From positions 1-64,000 of IMG/VR virus record IMGVR_UViG_3300024933_000029: 64,000 nucleotides of DNA; one strand, written 5' to 3'. Below are positions 33,509 to 43,691 of this stretch, piece after piece. Numbering within the stretch: position 1 is the stretch's first letter; the number at the start of each line of letters is the position of its first letter. Below the pieces are notes generated by a model. That model had not been told where the DNA came from. It searched no databases and worked only from the letters and a program-made list of their open reading frames with translations. The stretch is from a virus. The position numbers were made by a program, and so were the translations under genes.

Positions 33509-34309
33509 TCAAGGCCTCACTTCGCCTGCTGCCAAGGCTGCGTCACGGTCCAGGCGCTCCAGCTCGGCGATGATCAGCGCGCCAGATTTCACCAGCTCGC
33601 GGCGGCGATCACCCGGCTTGAACGAGGTGGGAAGCCAGCTAATGGGCCACAGGCTCATGTCGTTGGCATCGAGCGCAAACCGAGTGAATGGAGGGGTTGC
33701 GTACCAAGCTGCTGCGAGTGCGAGTTCGGAACCCTGATACACGTCGTCGTGCTTGGTGGAGCAGCCTTCAGCGCTCACTTGGCGGCGGCGCTCGTCGATC
33801 ACATCACGCTCGGCTTTGCTCCTCAGCATCCGGCGTGTAACCACTGACGGCTCAGCGGGCGCAGCAGGCGTCTCAGGGCTCGCAACCTGGGCCTTGGCCG
33901 ATAGCTTGATCAGTTCCTCGGCCAGCTTTTTTATCTGGTCGAGCATGGCCGTCGCGTCCACGCTGAAGCCCGGTGCGGAGTGGCGGCTGGGCTCGGTCTG
34001 TGCGTCGACGCACGCCGGGGGGCAATCTGTGGGCGCGGGCTTAGCAGGTGCTGTCTCGATGGCGAGACGCAGTTCGGCCACGCGGTCATCCATCCATCCG
34101 TCCCGTGACAAAACGGCGAACAAGCCCTTCTGCCGAGACCATTCGGCGATGACGGCCTCGCAGGCCACCAATAAGCCATGGGTCTCAGCACATGCAGAAG
34201 GCGCCGTGGCCAGAGCTTCCTTCCACACGATGTTGGCGTTATTGCGGTGCATATGGCAGTTGAAGCCGGCCAGGAAGAAGTGGCTGTCACGATCAGAAGT
34301 TGTGGTCAT
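33509..34309 (-). CDS. conserved phage protein of unknown function
   Basis: A 266-residue protein. The C-terminal ~110 residues have a pattern common in phages: ERDVIDERRRQVSAEG, KHDDVYQGSELALAAAWYA, then FKPGDRRRELVKSGALIIAE and LERLDR. The N-terminal half is variable with a short coiled coil (LDQIKKLAEELIKLSAKAQ). The function of the conserved domain is unknown to me. It overlaps the ParB-like gene at its start and the methyltransferase gene at its end. Confidence 0.7.
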   Translation of the reverse strand: MTTTSDRDSHFFLAGFNCHMHRNNANIVWKEALATAPSACAETHGLLVACEAVIAEWSRQKGLFAVLSRDGWMDDRVAELRLAIETAPAKPAPTDCPPACVDAQTEPSRHSAPGFSVDATAMLDQIKKLAEELIKLSAKAQVASPETPAAPAEPSVVTRRMLRSKAERDVIDERRRQVSAEGCSTKHDDVYQGSELALAAAWYATPPFTRFALDANDMSLWPISWLPTSFKPGDRRRELVKSGALIIAELERLDRDAALAAGEVRP

Positions 34310-36459
34310 TGGCGTGCCTCCTGTTGCTCGGTATTGATGATTTCCAGCTCGGTGTAGTCGGCGCTCAGGTTCCAGCGCTTGGCCGCGTCCAGGGCGTCCT
34401 CGTCGAGTAGGTCGACCTCGGGGTCAATGGGCAGCTCGATCAGCCACGCGCGGTCGCCGAGGCGCTCAGTGACCATGGCCAGGCGTCCCCTGGTGGGCAG
34501 GAGCTTCTTGCCGGGTCCGCGCAGGTCGACGCGGATGCGGACCTGCTGCATCGGTTCGATGGAGTTGGGAGTGGTGACCTCGGCGGCGGCCATCGCGTCC
34601 GCGATCGCGCGGCTGGCCTCTGCGGCCGTGGCCTTGCCCTTCTTGAGCTTGGGCGTGGCCTTGTCTGTGGGTGCTGCCTTGCCTGCGCGTGCGGCGGCCT
34701 CGGCTTTCATCTCGTCTTGCACTTGGCTTTGGATCGACTCGAGATCCACGTTGGCCAGGTCCACCAAGTCCTCGAGGAGTGGCTCGCCCTGGTCCAGGCC
34801 GAGGGTGCAACCCATCATGAGCATGTACTGGATCTGCGCGGGCAGATCCTGCTCGGCGAGATCCTCCAGGGCATTCTCCAAGTCCATTTCTGCCCGACCA
34901 GCCTTGCTGTCAACCTGGAACATGCGGTGCAGGAGGCGAGGGGGGGTCTGGACGGCCAGCAGTTTCAGGATCTGCAGGGCAATGCGGCTGGGTATGTGGT
35001 CCAGCCCTTCGGGCACGCACTGCAGGAGCCCGTCGATCGTTGCCTCGGCCGCGCGCTCGCGCCAGCGCATTTCGTACTCGCGCTTCAGCGCTTCCCGCGT
35101 GGGCTCGGCCGGCGGCTCGGCTTGGGCCTTGGCAGCCGCTTGCCGCTCGCCCTTGACCTTCACCGCCGCGCTGGCGGTGTGCGTGGCCACGGCCTCCACC
35201 AGGTTGCCGCTGGGCGCTTCGATCAGCACCACGTTTGCTGCCGGCACGTCCTGGCCCAGCACCTGGCGCACGGGCGCGCTGCTGCCCTGGCTGGGCTTGT
35301 CCAGCAGTAGGTAGCCACGGGGCGTGCCGTTTTCGCTGGGCATGATGTCGCGCGCTTGGCGGCCGGTGATGATCTGCTGTCCGCGCTGTTGGGCTTGGGC
35401 CTTGACACGCTCGAAGTGAGCGTCTTTCTTGTCGGCAAAGCAGGCGGTGTCAGTACAGACGTCCGCATCGTTCTTGTCCCATAGCTCCGGCGACGCGCCC
35501 GTGTGCTTGGGGCAGACCGAGCAGGCGCCAGCAGATGGGCACAGCGTGGCATCGTCCAGTGCGAACGGGGCCTGGTCCAGCTTGAGCATGTAGCTGCGCC
35601 GGGCCATGTCCAGGGCGCTGCGGTAGCTCATGGGGCCGCCGTCCGGGCCGCCGGTGAGCACGCGCTGCGTGTACTCGGCCTGGATGGCCTGGGTAGGCCG
35701 CTGGGCCACCAGCAGGGCCACGCTGCGCGTGAGCGTGCCGGCCTTGAGGCCGGTGATGGCTTCGGGGCACAGCGTTAGCAGGCGCAAGGACTCGAACACA
35801 TGGGTGCGGCTCTTGCGCAGGGCCTCGCCCGCTGTGTCGGCATTCATGCCATGGTCTTCGACCAGGCGCTGTACGCCCAGGGCTTCGTCCAGCGGGTTGA
35901 GGTCGATGCGGTGCAGGTTTTCGATCAGCTGCATCAACTGCGCCTGCATGTTGTCCGCGTCCCGCTCAAGGTAGGGGACGGCGCGCAGGCCGGCGATCTG
36001 GGCGGCGCGGTAGCGGCGCTCACCGGCGATGATTTCGTGCGTGGCGTGGCGGGTGGCCTCGTCCTCGAAGGTGTCCTGCAGGCGCTCGGCCGGCAGGCGG
36101 CGCAGCAGCAAGGGCTGCAGCACGCCGTACAACTTCATGGTGGCGGCCATGTCGTGCAACGCATCGTCCTCGACCACGCGGCGATTGGTGCGGCTGGGCA
36201 CGATCTGGATGATGGGCAGCGTGGGGTGCTGGGCTGCTGCGTCAGTGGGGCCGCGATCATTCACCACCTCGAAGGCATCCATGGGCAGGTTGACCAGGCT
36301 GTCGCCTACGGCGATCTGGTACTGGCGCCCGCCGGGCGTCTTTCCGATCACCTTGCCGCGCTGGCCGGCCTGGGGGTGGGGCTTGCCGCCCTTGCCCGTG
36401 GCCTCGGCGCTGATGACGACATCGCGGTCGATCAGGGGGTCTTTATTTTTGGGAGCCAC
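34306..36459 (-). CDS. ParB/RepB-like nuclease/CTPase-domain protein, Cys-rich
   Basis: A 717-residue protein. The ParB N-domain is clear: IVPSRTNRRVVEDDALHDMA, then GERRYRAAQIAG (the C2/CTP box) and ENLHRIDLNPLDEA. An HTH follows (GEALRKSRTHVFESLRLLTL). A Cys cluster (CPSAGACSVCPKHTG, then DVCTDTACFADKK) probably binds zinc. The C-terminus is helical with two small OB-like ends. Similar proteins occur on ICEs and PRTRC-type plasmids. The GTG start at 36459 has AGGAGG six bases upstream. No ParA is nearby, so a partition role is doubtful; a regulatory or DNA-loading role is as likely. Confidence 0.88.
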   Translation of the reverse strand: MAPKNKDPLIDRDVVISAEATGKGGKPHPQAGQRGKVIGKTPGGRQYQIAVGDSLVNLPMDAFEVVNDRGPTDAAAQHPTLPIIQIVPSRTNRRVVEDDALHDMAATMKLYGVLQPLLLRRLPAERLQDTFEDEATRHATHEIIAGERRYRAAQIAGLRAVPYLERDADNMQAQLMQLIENLHRIDLNPLDEALGVQRLVEDHGMNADTAGEALRKSRTHVFESLRLLTLCPEAITGLKAGTLTRSVALLVAQRPTQAIQAEYTQRVLTGGPDGGPMSYRSALDMARRSYMLKLDQAPFALDDATLCPSAGACSVCPKHTGASPELWDKNDADVCTDTACFADKKDAHFERVKAQAQQRGQQIITGRQARDIMPSENGTPRGYLLLDKPSQGSSAPVRQVLGQDVPAANVVLIEAPSGNLVEAVATHTASAAVKVKGERQAAAKAQAEPPAEPTREALKREYEMRWRERAAEATIDGLLQCVPEGLDHIPSRIALQILKLLAVQTPPRLLHRMFQVDSKAGRAEMDLENALEDLAEQDLPAQIQYMLMMGCTLGLDQGEPLLEDLVDLANVDLESIQSQVQDEMKAEAAARAGKAAPTDKATPKLKKGKATAAEASRAIADAMAAAEVTTPNSIEPMQQVRIRVDLRGPGKKLLPTRGRLAMVTERLGDRAWLIELPIDPEVDLLDEDALDAAKRWNLSADYTELEIINTEQQEARQ

Positions 36460-37270: not shown

Positions 37271-37426
37271 TCAGCCTCCTGTGAACAGGTGGATTGCCGA
37301 TGCGATGAAGGGGCCGGCGATCAGGGCCGCGGCAATGGCAGTCAGGGCCACCAGTTGGCGGCGCACGATGCGTTGATGCCGGCGGTTGGGGTGCGGCCCA
37401 TCCAGTTCAATGCGCGGCCTGCTCAT
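37271..37426 (-). CDS. small single-span membrane protein
   Basis: A 51-residue protein with a basic N-terminus (RRHQRIVRRQ) followed by one hydrophobic helix (LVALTAIAAALIAGPFIASA). Its ATG overlaps the stop of the 43-residue gene upstream. Unknown function; small membrane proteins of phage early operons often act in superinfection exclusion. Confidence 0.55.
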   Translation of the reverse strand: MSRPRIELDGPHPNRRHQRIVRRQLVALTAIAAALIAGPFIASAIHLFTGG

Positions 37427-37554
37427 GGCTGCACCCTGATGGCCGAGGCGCTGTGCACGCGGTGGAAGCACTGCGCCAGGATGACGGCCAGGCCGCCGCT
37501 CAGGTAGGCGCCGGTGAAGGTGCGGCCGGCGACGCGTACGCGGTAGGTATTCAT
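37423..37554 (-). CDS. 43-residue hypothetical protein
   Basis: A very short frame starting MNTYRVRVAGRTFTGAYLSG. Its start overlaps (ATGA) the stop of the helicase-like gene and its stop overlaps (ATGA) the next start, so it fills the gap exactly, which is the main evidence that it is translated. A moderately hydrophobic middle (GGLAVILAQ). Confidence 0.55.
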   Translation of the reverse strand: MNTYRVRVAGRTFTGAYLSGGLAVILAQCFHRVHSASAIRVQP

Positions 37555-38189
37555 GCCGGCCTCCCCGCGAATGCGTGCTCGGTCAGGAAATCCATCGTCA
37601 GCGGGTACTGCCGCAGGTACTCGCCGAAGTCGATTGCGCCGCCCCGGCCGCGCCAGTGGATCAGCTCGCGAAACAGCTGCGGCGTGGTGGTGGTCGTTGG
37701 TGCTGTCTCGATGACGAAGTAGCGTCGATCGAACTCGGCCTGCAGCAAAGCTGTGTTGCTTGTGACGAAAACGAGATTCAGGCGATTGAGCTCGACGCGT
37801 GAGGGATGGCCCTTTGCGTGGATCTGCAGTGAGGGGTTGCTGATCAGGGGCTTTAGTTGCTCGTACTGTTTTTCGAGCGTCGGCGCTTCGTCGAACGTCA
37901 CCAGGCGCTTGCCGGACAGAAAGCTATTGAAACGCTGATCCAGAACACTGGCACTACTCAGCGGCAGCGAGTCCGTGCCGTGAATGTGCTCCATGACGTC
38001 CACCAGCATGCCGGTGCCGTTGCCGCGCGGGCCGCGCAGTATCAGGGCCTTGCTGAGCTTGCCGTGCGGATGCTGCAGGGGGTGCGCCAGCCAGGACAGC
38101 AGCAGACTGGCAGTGATCGGGTTGGGCTGGCCGCCGGGCGCGCTGGTGAGGTGCTCCACGAGGTCGAGCATGGGCTGGACGGTGTTCAT
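37551..38189 (-). CDS. truncated DUF5906/D5-like helicase paralogue with defective Walker A
   Basis: A 212-residue protein that aligns by eye with about residues 199-400 of the phage's replicative helicase at 42033-43691: shared blocks are WLAHPLQHP (WLAYPLQHP), GKRLVTFDEAP (CKLFVVGDEVS), LKPLISNPSLQI (LKALITSPTVQI) and DRRYFVIETAP (DRRYLVVYTP). In place of the P-loop G-x-x-G-x-G-K it has G53-PRGNGTG, so the Walker A lysine is T59. It lacks the N- and C-terminal parts of the helicase. Intact reading frame, ATGA overlaps at both ends. Probably an ATPase-dead regulator or inhibitor; the role is inference. Confidence 0.82.
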   Translation of the reverse strand: MNTVQPMLDLVEHLTSAPGGQPNPITASLLLSWLAHPLQHPHGKLSKALILRGPRGNGTGMLVDVMEHIHGTDSLPLSSASVLDQRFNSFLSGKRLVTFDEAPTLEKQYEQLKPLISNPSLQIHAKGHPSRVELNRLNLVFVTSNTALLQAEFDRRYFVIETAPTTTTTPQLFRELIHWRGRGGAIDFGEYLRQYPLTMDFLTEHAFAGRPA

Positions 38190-38584
38190 ACCGCTTCCCC
38201 CATCTGCTGCTTCAGGGTTTCGCGGACCTGCAGCAGGCGCATGGTCAGCATGCCCAGCGCGGTTTGCCGGCCCCAATCTCCTGGCCGGCCTGCGTACTTG
38301 ATCAGGGGGTCGAGCAGCTGCGCCCAGCGCGCGTATTCGTCCGGCGACAGGTCGCAGGAGGCGAGCTTCTGCTCTGGTGCCGGAAGCGTTGCATTCGCGG
38401 CCTCGGCGGCGGCTTGGGCGCGCTGCGTGTCGATGGTGACGCGCACGACGTCGACCTGGCCACGCAGCTTTTTCAGCAGCAGGCCGACATCGGTTTCTTG
38501 GTGGGGATCGTTCTCGAAGCCGGCGACGAACCGCTCGGCCTCTTGAAGCGTTTCATGGAGCGCGAGAAGGGGGACAAGGGACAT
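38186..38584 (-). CDS. hypothetical protein, first gene of leftward operon
   Basis: A 132-residue, helical protein (LHETLQEAERFVAGFENDP, then LLLKKLRGQVDVVRVTIDTQ) with no family recognised. It begins 39 bases downstream of two repressor operators, so it should be the first gene transcribed leftward on induction. The ribosome site GGAGG is seven bases before the ATG. Confidence 0.65.
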   Translation of the reverse strand: MSLVPLLALHETLQEAERFVAGFENDPHQETDVGLLLKKLRGQVDVVRVTIDTQRAQAAAEAANATLPAPEQKLASCDLSPDEYARWAQLLDPLIKYAGRPGDWGRQTALGMLTMRLLQVRETLKQQMGEAV

Positions 38585-38622
38585 GGAACCTCCAGCACCC
38601 GGGATGGGTGTCGGAGGTGATT

Positions 38623-38659
38623 ATCCAAAATGGATTACTTGTGTCAATCCATTTTGGAT
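38623..38659 (-). promoter_or_regulatory. two operators (ATCCA-N3-TGGAT) of the leftward early promoter
   Basis: atccaaaatggat at 38623-38635 and atccattttggat at 38647-38659, start-to-start 24 bases apart. The same 13-bp palindrome occurs twice more at 39679-39706 between repressor and Cro, so this is a second operator region for the same protein, in front of the gene at 38584. Confidence 0.82.
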
Positions 38660-39216: not shown

Positions 39217-39615
39217 CTAGTTTGTTGTGCCGTTTTTCGCCGGGGCAGGACTTTTGATTTGTGCTGTTTCTTCTGGCAGCGGAGCAACAGCGTTCACCAT
39301 GGAGCCAATTGCATCCCAGAGGCTTTCTGGTAGTCGGCCAGTGCGCTCCAGCAGTATCAGCTTGCGCACAACCGCCTTGGCTGGGCCAGTAAGGCCATCC
39401 GTAGTGTCGTTGGGGTCGGTGCCATATGTGAGCCAGGTACGTGTGACCCCCAGGTGATCCGCGATCTGGTTGATCTCCTCGAAGGCGGGCTGCCGAGCTC
39501 CAGCCAACCACTTCTGCATGCCTGCAGGGGTCATGCTGAACTGCTCGGCCAAACGCTCCTGCGAGATGCCAAGTTCGCGCATGCGGGACTTCGCCCGATC
39601 TCTCCATGTATCCAT
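39217..39615 (-). CDS. Prophage repressor (XRE HTH), region C
   Basis: A 132-residue protein with an N-terminal HTH (RAKSRMRELGISQERLAEQF, SMTPAGMQKWLAGARQPAF, then EEINQIADHLGVTRTWLTYG), a CI-like DNA-binding domain. The C-terminal part is short and lacks an S24 LexA-like peptidase motif. Start chosen at the ATG at 39615; in-frame ATGs exist up to 39699. Divergent from the Cro-like gene across a pair of 13-bp operators. Confidence 0.88.
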   Translation of the reverse strand: MDTWRDRAKSRMRELGISQERLAEQFSMTPAGMQKWLAGARQPAFEEINQIADHLGVTRTWLTYGTDPNDTTDGLTGPAKAVVRKLILLERTGRLPESLWDAIGSMVNAVAPLPEETAQIKSPAPAKNGTTN

Positions 39616-39678
39616 GGAGCAAGTTTCCCAAGCCGTCGTCGCTTGTGGAATGCACAAAATGGAGTTCATGGCTTTGTG

Positions 39679-39706
39679 ATCCATTGTGGATTGATCCATA
39701 ATGGAT
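39679..39706. promoter_or_regulatory. paired operators between repressor and Cro
   Basis: atccattgtggat (39679-39691) and atccataatggat (39694-39706), 15 bases start to start, the second ending two bases before the Cro-like ATG. They match the pair at 38623-38659 in arms ATCCA/TGGAT. Confidence 0.85.
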
Positions 39707-40343: not shown

Positions 40344-40502
40344 GGATGTGTCCTTTCTTGGTTTCGTGGTTGCCAGGGGTGTGTTCCGCCCCGGGCGCAT
40401 TTTCCGCCCGGTGCCCGTCATGGGCCTGGGCGGCTTTTTCTTGCGAGGTTTCGGTGCATGGGTTCATGCACCGAAGTCTCTTTTTTTTGCCTCGTCGAGG
40501 CA

Positions 40503-40539
40503 TTCCGAACGGTTCCGAAAGATTCGGAATGGTTCGGAA
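40503..40539. repeat. 17-bp inverted repeat upstream of CII-like gene
   Basis: ttccgaacggttccgaa and ttcggaatggttcggaa around a 3-base centre: arms pair in 15 of 17 positions and each arm itself contains two TTCSGAA half-sites. It lies 42 bases before the CII-like ATG; a hairpin or a four-half-site operator. Confidence 0.7.
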
Positions 40540-40580: not shown

Positions 40581-40970
40581 ATGGATGACGATGAAATCCT
40601 GATGTATGACGATGAGTTAGACGCGGCCAAGGCGGCCGTCCAGCGCCTGGGCGGCGCGAAGAAGGTGGGCGAGATGCTCTACCCCGAGAAGACGCCCGAG
40701 GCAGCCGCGCGCTACCTGCTGGATGCGCTCAACCCCTCGCGCTCCGAGCGGCTGAACCCCGGCCAGGTGCTGCTGCTGATGCGCAAGGCGCGCGAGATCG
40801 GCTTCCACGGCCTGACCGCCTATTTCATGCGCGAGGCTGGCTATGCCCCGCCCGTGCCCTTGGACCCGGTCACCGAGACTGCCCGCCTGGCGCACACGCT
40901 GGAGCGGGTGATGGGCACGGCGCTGCAGGTCGCTGCCCAACTCGAGCGCTTGAAGGGGGGCAAGGCCTGA
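40581..40970 (+). CDS. CII-like phage regulatory protein
   Basis: A 129-residue protein of the phage CII/CP76 regulatory type: AAKAAVQRLGGAKKVGEMLY, then PEKTPEAAARYLLDALNPSR, LNPGQVLLLMRKAREIGFHG. This is an HTH-like tetrameric regulator with a helical C-terminus. GAGGTG lies seven bases upstream. The preceding inverted repeat may be its target. Its stop overlaps the primase start (TGATGG), so it is co-translated with the replication genes. Role in the lysis-lysogeny choice is inferred. Confidence 0.8.
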   Translation: MDDDEILMYDDELDAAKAAVQRLGGAKKVGEMLYPEKTPEAAARYLLDALNPSRSERLNPGQVLLLMRKAREIGFHGLTAYFMREAGYAPPVPLDPVTETARLAHTLERVMGTALQVAAQLERLKGGKA

Positions 40971-42040
40971 TGGACAACTATCAGGATGTCCTGCGCCAAA
41001 TGGAGTACTTCGGGATTGAGCTGCGCGACCGGGATCTCCGCCTCATGGATGACCGCATACGCAAGGGCTGCAAGACCACGTGCGGCAAAGGCGGGAAGGA
41101 CTGGTACAAGCTGCACCTGTGGCAGCCAGACGCTGGCGGCACGTATGTGGTCGGCTCGTTCGGCACCTATCGTCATGGCGGCGATTGGCAGCGGGTGGAG
41201 ATTGACCTGGCGCCGCTGTCCGAGGCCGAGCGCGCCCGCCAGGCCGCCCACCGTAAGGCCCTGGCCGAGGCAGCAGCACTTGAGCGCGCACAGGAGATCG
41301 CCAACGCTGCGGCCGAGGCCATCGATATCTGGCGCAAGGGCGTGCGCGCGGCCACTACGCCGTATCTGGACCGCAAGCAGGTGCAGGGCGAGGCCTTCCG
41401 TGCGCTCGATCGCCCGATTTCGCTGCGCTGGCCTTCCCGCAAGCGTGGCGAGGATGACGTGGTGGTGCGCCTGCCGGTTGGCACCACGCTACTGCCCCTG
41501 GTGCGGCCGGATCTGCCCCGAGACCAGGCACTGCGCGGCCTGCAGTTCATCAAGCCGGACGGGATGAAGATCTACCTGCGGGCCTTCGACAAGCCGGGCT
41601 GCTGCATCCGCCTCGGTGAGATCGACGCCGGCAGCACGGCGCTGTTGATGGTGGTCGAGGGCTATGCCACAGGCCTGACCGCCCGCATGGCGGTGGACCA
41701 CCAGCACCCGGTGTTCGTGGCCCTCGACGCCGGCAACCTGGCCGAGGTCGTGCGCGTGCTGCGGGCGCTGTTCCCGGCCACGCGCATCCTGATCCTGGCC
41801 GACGACGACTACATGACCAGGGACAAGCGCACGGGGGCGCTGCTCAACCCGGGCCGCACGGCCGCGCGCCGTGCGGCCAAAGCCACGGACGGCTGCGACT
41901 TGGTCTGGCCGATCTTCAAGCCCTTGACACGGGGGCCGAAGGATACCGACTTCAACGATCTGCACGTCCTCGAGGGCCTGGACGTGGTGCGCCGGCAGCT
42001 GGTGGGCGTGGTCGAGGCGATGGCGAGGCGCTATGGCTGA
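40970..42040 (+). CDS. Toprim-domain DNA primase
   Basis: A 356-residue primase of the phage/plasmid type with a Toprim_3 domain: LLMVVEGYATGLTARMA carries the catalytic Glu, FVALDAGNLAEVVRVLRALF follows, and ILILADDDY with the DTDFNDLH ending carries the acidic metal-binding pair. The N-terminal part (DWYKLHLWQPDAGGTYVVGS) is the DUF-type domain found with such primases. It lacks a classical N-terminal zinc finger. It overlaps the helicase start by eight bases; together they would make the replisome core of the phage. Confidence 0.88.
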   Translation: MDNYQDVLRQMEYFGIELRDRDLRLMDDRIRKGCKTTCGKGGKDWYKLHLWQPDAGGTYVVGSFGTYRHGGDWQRVEIDLAPLSEAERARQAAHRKALAEAAALERAQEIANAAAEAIDIWRKGVRAATTPYLDRKQVQGEAFRALDRPISLRWPSRKRGEDDVVVRLPVGTTLLPLVRPDLPRDQALRGLQFIKPDGMKIYLRAFDKPGCCIRLGEIDAGSTALLMVVEGYATGLTARMAVDHQHPVFVALDAGNLAEVVRVLRALFPATRILILADDDYMTRDKRTGALLNPGRTAARRAAKATDGCDLVWPIFKPLTRGPKDTDFNDLHVLEGLDVVRRQLVGVVEAMARRYG

Positions 42041-43691
42041 GCACACCGACGATATCGACGCTGGCGGGGCCTCGTTCCCGCCCCCGCCGCCACCGCATGC
42101 GACCGAAGAGTCGCATGCTTCGTCGGCTCTCGGCGCGCCAGCGCCGCTGGATAACTCTGTCGTGCACGTCGACTTTCAGTCAGGTGTGCGCGTGCCGCCA
42201 GGCGAGGCGCAGGCCGAGCCATCTCGTTCGTCGCCCCCCCGCCCCCCCAAAGTGAGCGCAGCTGCGCGCGACTCTGGGGATGGGGGTGGCAAGGCCCCTG
42301 CCGACAAGGCCGATCCGCCAGTGCAGGGCAAGAAAAAGGAGAAGACGGTCGATTGGGGGAAGTTCAACCACCTGGCCGAGAACTTCGTGCTGATCTACGG
42401 CACGGACACCGTATGGGACGGTGCCGAGCGGATGATCATGAAGATCGCCAACATGGGCCACGCCCACGGCGCCGAAATGGTCCGCATGTGGAAGGCCAAT
42501 GAGAAGCGCAAGACGGTGCGGCTGGAGGACGTGGTCTTCGATCCGACGATGAAGGCCGACCCGGTCACCACGGTGAATCTGTTCGACGGCATGGCCATGG
42601 TTCCCGAGGCCGGCGACGTGACCCCCGTGCTGGAGCTGATCTCCTACCTGACCAGCCGGGCCACGCCAGATGAGGCCGACACCGGCGACATCATGCATTG
42701 GCTGCTGCGCTGGTTGGCCTACCCGCTGCAGCACCCGGGTGCCAAGCTGCGCACGGCCGTGGTGATGCACGGCGACGAAGGCGCGGGCAAGAACTTTCTG
42801 TTCGACATCATGGTCGCCATCTACGGCAAGTACGGGGCGCTGGTGGGGCAGGATGAGCTGGAGGACAAGTTCAACGATTGGCGCAGCTGCAAGCTGTTCG
42901 TGGTGGGCGACGAAGTGTCCAGCAGGGCCGAGCTGGTTCACAACAAGAACCGGCTGAAGGCGCTGATCACCTCGCCGACCGTGCAGATCAATCCCAAGAA
43001 TCTGACGCGGCGCGAGGAGAAGAACCACATGAACATCGCGTTCCTGTCGAACGAGCTGCAGCCGCTCGCCCTGGACAACTCGGACCGGCGCTACCTGGTG
43101 GTGTACACGCCCCGGGCCAAGGACATCGAGTACTACAAGAAGCTGGGCGAGTGGCGCGACAACGGGGGCGTGGCCGCGTTCTACGACTACCTGCTCAAGT
43201 ACCCGCTGGGGGACTTCCACCCCTACGCCCCGGCCCCCATGACGGAAGCCAAGACGGCGCTGATCGAGATCAACCGCAAGAGCCCCGAGATCTTCTGGAG
43301 CGAGTGGCAGGCCGGCGAGCTGGACCTGCCCTACAACGCCTGCGCCGTCAGCCAGGCCTATGCCGCCTACCTCAAGTGGTGCCAGCGATCCGGCGATCGC
43401 TACCCCGAGAAGCAAACGCGCTTCACCCCAATGGTCCTGCGTTTCTCTGAGGGGCAGGGGTACCCGGCACGGGTCAAGCCAATGAATGTCACGCGGCCTG
43501 GTGCCGCGAAGAAGACCGAGCGAATGTTCTTGGTGACCGATCCGATTCTGGGCGAGGGCGACCAGCGCATGACAGAGAGCGAGTGGGCCACCACTGCGGT
43601 GCGTGACTTCGGCGATGCACTGCGCAAGTACATGGGATACGGCAGCGGCGCCCCTTCCCCCGAAGGGCATGAGCCAGAGGGAGGTCAGTGA
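42033..43691 (+). CDS. Replicative helicase (DUF5906, D5/P4-alpha-like SF3)
   Basis: A 552-residue protein. The first ~100 residues are Pro/Ser-rich and disordered. The SF3-like ATPase domain has Walker A G247-DEGAGKN (K253), Walker B FVVGDEVS, a sensor motif MNIAFLSNE and DRRYLVV. It would unwind the origin and load the replisome. A truncated paralogue without the P-loop lysine is encoded at 37551-38189 on the other strand. Candidate iterons follow immediately. Confidence 0.9.
   Translation: MAEHTDDIDAGGASFPPPPPPHATEESHASSALGAPAPLDNSVVHVDFQSGVRVPPGEAQAEPSRSSPPRPPKVSAAARDSGDGGGKAPADKADPPVQGKKKEKTVDWGKFNHLAENFVLIYGTDTVWDGAERMIMKIANMGHAHGAEMVRMWKANEKRKTVRLEDVVFDPTMKADPVTTVNLFDGMAMVPEAGDVTPVLELISYLTSRATPDEADTGDIMHWLLRWLAYPLQHPGAKLRTAVVMHGDEGAGKNFLFDIMVAIYGKYGALVGQDELEDKFNDWRSCKLFVVGDEVSSRAELVHNKNRLKALITSPTVQINPKNLTRREEKNHMNIAFLSNELQPLALDNSDRRYLVVYTPRAKDIEYYKKLGEWRDNGGVAAFYDYLLKYPLGDFHPYAPAPMTEAKTALIEINRKSPEIFWSEWQAGELDLPYNACAVSQAYAAYLKWCQRSGDRYPEKQTRFTPMVLRFSEGQGYPARVKPMNVTRPGAAKKTERMFLVTDPILGEGDQRMTESEWATTAVRDFGDALRKYMGYGSGAPSPEGHEPEGGQ

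Follow-up and report, generated by a model that had tools for sequence, protein, structure and literature searches.

A Catalytically Dead, Body-Only Relative of NrS-1-Type Replicative Helicases in the Leftward Early Operon of a Temperate Phage

Introduction

In the rings formed by AAA+ proteins, pseudo-ATPase subunits have lost the cis site and kept the trans face, and the regulation of AAA+ rings by dead paralogues is in principle a known phenomenon. The sensor-1 residue works in cis and the arginine finger in trans, and a Ser at the sensor-1 position is tolerated in some AAA+ proteins (PMC5039278). The C-terminal region of the NrS-1 polymerase is composed of a Head, a Body and a Tail; deletion of the Tail yields a monomer without unwinding activity, the K453A substitution abolishes hydrolysis, and R555A and R556A reduce it (PMC7102993).

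The window analyzed here is a stretch of 64,000 nt (positions 1 to 64,000) of the virus record IMGVR_UViG_3300024933_000029, to which all coordinates refer unless a relative is named (Table 1). It encodes an intact NrS-1/D5-type helicase and, on the other strand, a small protein that an initial annotation had described as an ATPase-dead, truncated paralogue of this helicase. Relatives of the window, both viral contigs and prophages, are designated by L numbers.

Table 1. Features of the replication and early control region of the window.
Feature	Position	Strand	Basis
ParB-like protein (717 aa), same leftward operon	34306..36459	-	ParB_N + HTH_ParB, TIGR00180 1.2e-29
43-aa ORF, coupled downstream of the paralogue, syntenic in relatives	37423..37554	-	ATGA overlap, synteny
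Dead Body-only SF3/NrS-1-type helicase paralogue (212 aa)	37551..38189	-	Frame, homology, AlphaFold2 model, PDB match
Kept DRR, residues 154-156, counterpart of the R555/R556 arginine finger region in NrS-1	37722..37730	-	Alignment, PMC7102993
Walker A position, residues 53-60, GPRGNGTG (Lys to Thr)	38010..38033	-	Alignment
132-aa ORF without Pfam or PHROG match, opens the leftward operon and is coupled to the paralogue	38186..38584	-	Frame, synteny
Leftward early promoter TTGACA-16-GATAAT, 11/12	38620..38647	-	Promoter sequence
Two presumed repressor operators, ATCCAAAATGGAT and ATCCATTTTGGAT, overlapping the leftward promoter	38623..38659	.	Palindromes
CI/C1-type HTH repressor	39217..39699	-	HTH_3 9.3e-08, PHROG repressors
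Two more operators of the same kind, between the repressor and a Cro-like gene	39679..39706	.	Palindromes
Toprim-type primase (356 aa), overlaps the helicase gene	40970..42040	+	Toprim_3, phrog_2249 1e-66
Intact NrS-1/D5-type SF3 helicase (552 aa): Head, Body (about 196-390), Tail	42033..43691	+	BLASTP, Pfam, PHROG, model

Homology, Junctions and Fold of the Paralogue

The frame of the small protein contains no internal stop, and its product is 35% identical to the window helicase over 214 aa (BLASTP, E=5e-32), in an alignment that covers helicase residues 196-402 only; the intact frame and the homology to the central helicase domain are thus as initially described. Both proteins match Pfam DUF5906 (PF19263; E=1.7e-13 for the paralogue and 1.7e-19 for the helicase) as well as phage DNA primase/helicase families, and the paralogue, with 51.7 bits, lies above the DUF5906 gathering cut-off of 27.6. 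Translational coupling at both ends is likewise upheld, since both junctions consist of an ATGA overlap: the stop of the upstream 132-aa ORF, which has no Pfam or PHROG match, falls on the paralogue start codon, and the paralogue stop overlaps the start of the 43-aa ORF. The sequence GGGGGA precedes the paralogue ATG.

An AlphaFold2 model of the paralogue, built with 47 related sequences as input, has a mean pLDDT of 91.9. Its top PDB matches in a Foldseek search are 6k9c, 6lrb and 6k9e, all from the C-terminal region of the NrS-1 polymerase (TM 0.76 on the query, E 1e-11), followed by SaPI and poxvirus D5-type helicases. In the model of the window helicase, additional domains precede and follow the Body, and the match extends over the entire NrS-1 region. 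From this fold match and the domain layout of NrS-1, the paralogue corresponds to the Body alone, without the catalytic Lys, and all 15 homologues considered below are likewise a helicase Body without Head and Tail. Because NrS-1 without its Tail is a monomer (PMC7102993), a tail-less single Body subunit may, by analogy, be unable to form rings alone. The paralogues of L005 (4956-6101) and L011 (4697-5842) are the only ones that carry a C-terminal extension of their own, of ~180 aa, for which no Pfam family was found in L005.

Catalytic Residues Lost and Kept

Residue retention was scored in 15 small proteins against a reference set of 90 full-length helicases, in which the Walker A Lys, the Walker B Glu, the sensor-1 Asn and both arginines are effectively invariant. 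In the window paralogue, the alignment confirms what had been read from the P-loop: GPRGNGTG stands in place of the helicase GDEGAGKN, so that the Walker A Lys is replaced by Thr, and the DRRY stretch is kept (D154-R155-R156-Y157). The Walker B acidic pair, which is lost in most other homologues, is kept in the window protein (VTFDEA). The sensor-1 column holds Ser144, and an Asn lies one residue further; since the two adjoin, a shift of sensor 1 by one residue is possible in this protein. It is therefore the loss of the Lys that constitutes the firm lesion of the window paralogue.

Across the 15 small proteins, the sensor-1 Asn is kept in none, the Walker B Glu in four and the Walker A Lys in six, whereas the 42 helicase-invariant positions show a mean retention of 60%. 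Arginine finger R353 is kept in 14/15 and R352 in 12/15, both arginines being lost from the L005 paralogue. In permutations of the invariant positions, the retention of the cis trio (Lys, Glu and Asn) was low compared with random trios (p=0.017, a rough permutation) and that of the arginine pair was not significantly high (p=0.12); the 15 proteins are related and do not represent independent events, so these counts and p-values are descriptive. In L047, L071, L275 and L277-L279 the Lys is kept, and the damage lies at Walker B and/or sensor 1 instead. The search for the same truncated, P-loop-less form elsewhere, which the initial annotation had proposed as a check, thus finds dead, truncated copies, in some of which Walker B or sensor 1 is damaged and not the P-loop.

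Relatives, Distribution and Selection

Related phages were found by scanning viral contigs with the helicase and with an operon neighbor; a scan of genome contigs with the single paralogue protein and a DNA search of phage records with the region gave no match. The survey yielded 15 distinct intact homologues, none with an internal stop, from viral contigs and from Comamonadaceae and Massilia-family prophages, so that the same truncated form is indeed present in other phages and prophages. Bacterial genomes contributed the prophage copies of Acidovorax (L047), Comamonas (L051) and the Massilia family (L071, L275-L279). The identity to the window paralogue is 74% in L006, 69% in L008, 48% in L005 and L011, and about 32% in L014 and L015, and the phage homologues lie at the same place, on the strand opposite to the helicase. 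Two proteins were omitted: L280 (292 aa), which keeps GTGKN, DE, TN and RR and belongs to another lineage, and L022 (132 aa, with an intact P-loop), which is too distant.

Some relatives do without the gene: in L013, L021/L049, L046 and L048, which share the helicase type and the operon, other ORFs fill the paralogue slot. An ORF family of 242-313 aa, function unknown, occupies or shares this variable slot (L014:5060-6001, L051:4052-4780 and L013:5523-6386). Short ORFs in the same operon of two further relatives were also noted: one (L017:5329-5652; NIIFSSG..LDRRF) resembles only the sensor-1/arginine-finger stretch, with a weak score, and the likeness of the other (L023:3835-4359; NYFFTTG..GRRW) to that stretch is not significant. 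A second short helicase-like stretch, 32% identical over 93 aa to the window helicase, lies between the operons of L051 (6708-6977, plus strand).

Within allele groups, dN/dS of the paralogue is 0.43 for window/L006, 0.28 for window/L008, 0.37 for L006/L008, 0.28 for L005/L011 and 0.18 for L014/L015 (0.18-0.43), for comparison with 0.02-0.22 in the helicase. With all 15 frames intact and dN/dS below 1 in every pair compared, the earlier statement that the gene is not simply decaying is well founded. The paralogue evolves faster than the neighboring genes; a windowed pN/pS analysis placed the strongest constraint at its two ends and revealed no convincing excess indicative of positive selection. 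The paralogue is, in short, an accessory, exchangeable and fast-evolving early gene.

Origins of the Copies

The paralogue is no closer to the helicase of its own window than to the helicases of relatives, and its branch is long and falls outside the group of its own helicase. A recent duplication of the window's own helicase is thus unsupported, and the split between the two proteins is old; of the description as a paralogue of the phage's own helicase, the homology stands and a recent or own descent does not. In the main tree of 57 sequences, which includes the Massilia copies and is subject to the caveat of long branches, the Massilia-group copies form one group (100/96), next to which the helicase from one of these prophages branches (100/98); those of Comamonadaceae form a separate group with weaker support (75/98). 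A single clade for all copies is disfavored in this tree, with the same long-branch caveat (p-AU 0.033), and with it one origin of all copies once those of Massilia are included. When the Massilia copies were left out of a smaller tree, a common clade of those from Comamonadaceae was not rejected (p=0.39). The simplest reading, as these trees suggest, would be that this kind of protein arose twice independently.

The Leftward Operon and the Replication Genes

The window contains only four ATCCAnnnTGGAT palindromes, at 38623 and 38647 in the leftward promoter and at 39679 and 39694 in the gap between the repressor and the Cro-like gene, and this agrees with the claim that the leftward operon is operator-controlled. 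The same four sites are found in L004, L011 and L013, and L005, L006 and L008, which have other immunity regions, carry different repeats in both the leftward-promoter and the repressor places. As the operators overlap the listed 5′ end of the repressor gene, its true start is probably internal. Since the leftward promoter carries the repressor's presumed operators, the paralogue should be silent in the lysogen and expressed early upon induction. For the same reason, superinfection immunity in the lysogen, one of the functions first proposed for the protein, is not favored: the promoter would be the repressor's own target. The ParB-like protein of this operon also matches TIGR03734 (PRTRC system ParB; 6.9e-22), far below the cut-off.

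Several observations concern the rightward replication genes. The primase and the helicase are encoded by two overlapping genes in the window (40970-43691) and by one fused protein (about 900-936 aa) in L071 and L279. Just upstream of this operon lies an inverted repeat, TTCCGAACGGTTCCGAA-AGA-TTCGGAATGGTTCGGAA (40503-40539), and similar repeats occupy the same place once in L008 (8471-8507) and twice in L005 (8339-8375 and 8487-8523); it is a candidate origin or binding site of ParB or of a 129-aa protein. A strong terminator-like hairpin (40445-40480, plus strand; 16 pairs and a T run) also precedes the primase operon.

Discussion

The best explanation, which we hold with about even confidence, is that the paralogue is a selected, catalytically dead helicase Body subunit that binds and restrains NrS-1-type helicases. 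Once the repressed leftward operon is switched on, the paralogue would be made and would dock onto a subunit of an NrS-1-type helicase by its arginine-finger face, that is, the face which a helicase subunit presents to the nucleotide pocket of its neighbor and which the paralogue has kept, or it would cap an assembling ring. Being unable to hydrolyze nucleotide or to close the ring, the docked protein would restrain the helicase. Against such docking, the Tail, which is important for hexamer assembly in NrS-1, is missing from the paralogue, the arginine finger is retained no more than other structurally conserved positions, and the L005 protein has neither arginine. The target may be either the phage's own helicase, in which case replication would be limited, or that of a related phage sharing the cell, and the second option is in slightly better accord with the accessory, fast-changing pattern. 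It is tempting to speculate that, on at least two occasions, the NrS-1-type helicase core of temperate Burkholderiales phages was turned into a dead inhibitor that blocks competing phages with the same helicase type; such proteins would then form a recurrently evolved class of helicase-derived replication inhibitors, although this broader proposal is tentative and would more probably fail than hold.

A narrower alternative is strict self-regulation, in which the paralogue joins the rings of the phage's own helicase as a dominant-negative subunit and thereby determines copy number or the timing of replication. In its favor, a single repressor lies amid the early operons of both the helicase and the paralogue, the copies of the Massilia group have as their sister the helicase found in that type of prophage, and cis catalysis is lost and the trans finger kept; moreover, a small protein, Cnr, can control the copy number of a phage-like element in the P4 precedent (PMC8628076). 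Nevertheless, pure self-regulation, and with it the copy-number control that was first suggested, is weakened on three counts. The gene is missing from the close relatives with the same helicase named above (L013, L021/L049, L046 and L048). The paralogue diverges while its own helicase remains nearly unchanged, with a dN of 0.19 against 0.004 between L006 and L008 and with 48% identity between the small proteins of the window and L005 beside helicases that are 99% identical; such divergence argues against a strict fit to the own helicase. Finally, two Massilia-family prophages, L276 and L277, keep the paralogue with a VapE-type replicase, and no second DUF5906-type match was found in their genomes at 1e-8 (best candidates scored), so that the paralogue need not be accompanied by a DUF5906 helicase. 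Strict self-regulation therefore seems rather unlikely, and the accessory distribution, the fast divergence and the persistence beside VapE replicases tip the balance slightly toward competition or toward a function that does not involve the own helicase.

A function of the latter kind would arise if the Body had been recruited as a structural or adaptor domain, for example with the ParB-like protein, and no longer concerned the helicase. A ParB-like gene is found near 14/15 paralogue homologues, directly upstream in most of the Massilia group, the paralogue is retained where the replicase was exchanged, and its nucleotide site has degenerated in varied ways. However, relatives that lack the paralogue (L013, L046 and L048) possess ParB as well, no ParB was found in L071, which has the paralogue, and the retention of the arginine finger would be left unexplained; we consider this recruitment doubtful. 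Less probable still is a decoy against a host defense that senses or attacks phage SF3 helicases, which would make the paralogue an anti-defense gene: the slot is variable and filled by other ORFs in relatives, and the protein diverges fast with conserved ends, but no such host sensor was identified, the idea is purely inferential, and the paralogue has no PADLOC profile match, a result that also argues against a known anti-phage defense protein. That a helicase gene was duplicated and the present frame is its leftover, through decay or chance, might be suggested by its faster evolution relative to its neighbors and by the short ORFs of L017 and, with very weak support, L023, which may be remnants. 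This reading is rejected for practical purposes as highly improbable in view of the intact frames, the dN/dS values and the homologue survey, together with the coupled junctions, conserved ends, synteny and high-confidence fold.

If the preferred reading of a restraining Body subunit is right and the paralogue binds helicase rings, it would provide a small, naturally occurring inhibitor of NrS-1/D5-type helicases and a way to study how phages that share a cell govern or sabotage replication. A literature search, largely confined to open-access papers, returned no description of a phage pseudo-helicase or of a stand-alone, Body-only, dead copy of a phage replicative helicase that is kept by selection and apparently arose twice.

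Compared with the C-terminal region of the NrS-1 polymerase (PDB 6K9C, 6K9E and 6LRB), which belongs to an active hexameric enzyme, the paralogue shares the Body fold and has kept the RR finger, but lacks the Head, the Tail, the catalytic Walker A Lys and the sensor-1 Asn (PMC7102993). Among proteins with the DUF5906/NrS-1 polymerase-like helicase domain, the 90 full-length relatives keep K, [DE]E, N and DRR, whereas the paralogue is without the K and the aligned N. The Cnr protein of P4, a small phage-encoded protein that restrains the replication of a phage-like element, offers an analogy at the level of function only, and we know of no sequence relation between Cnr and a helicase. In contrast to the pseudo-ATPase subunits of AAA+ rings, the paralogue is a separate, Body-only protein encoded in a phage early operon.
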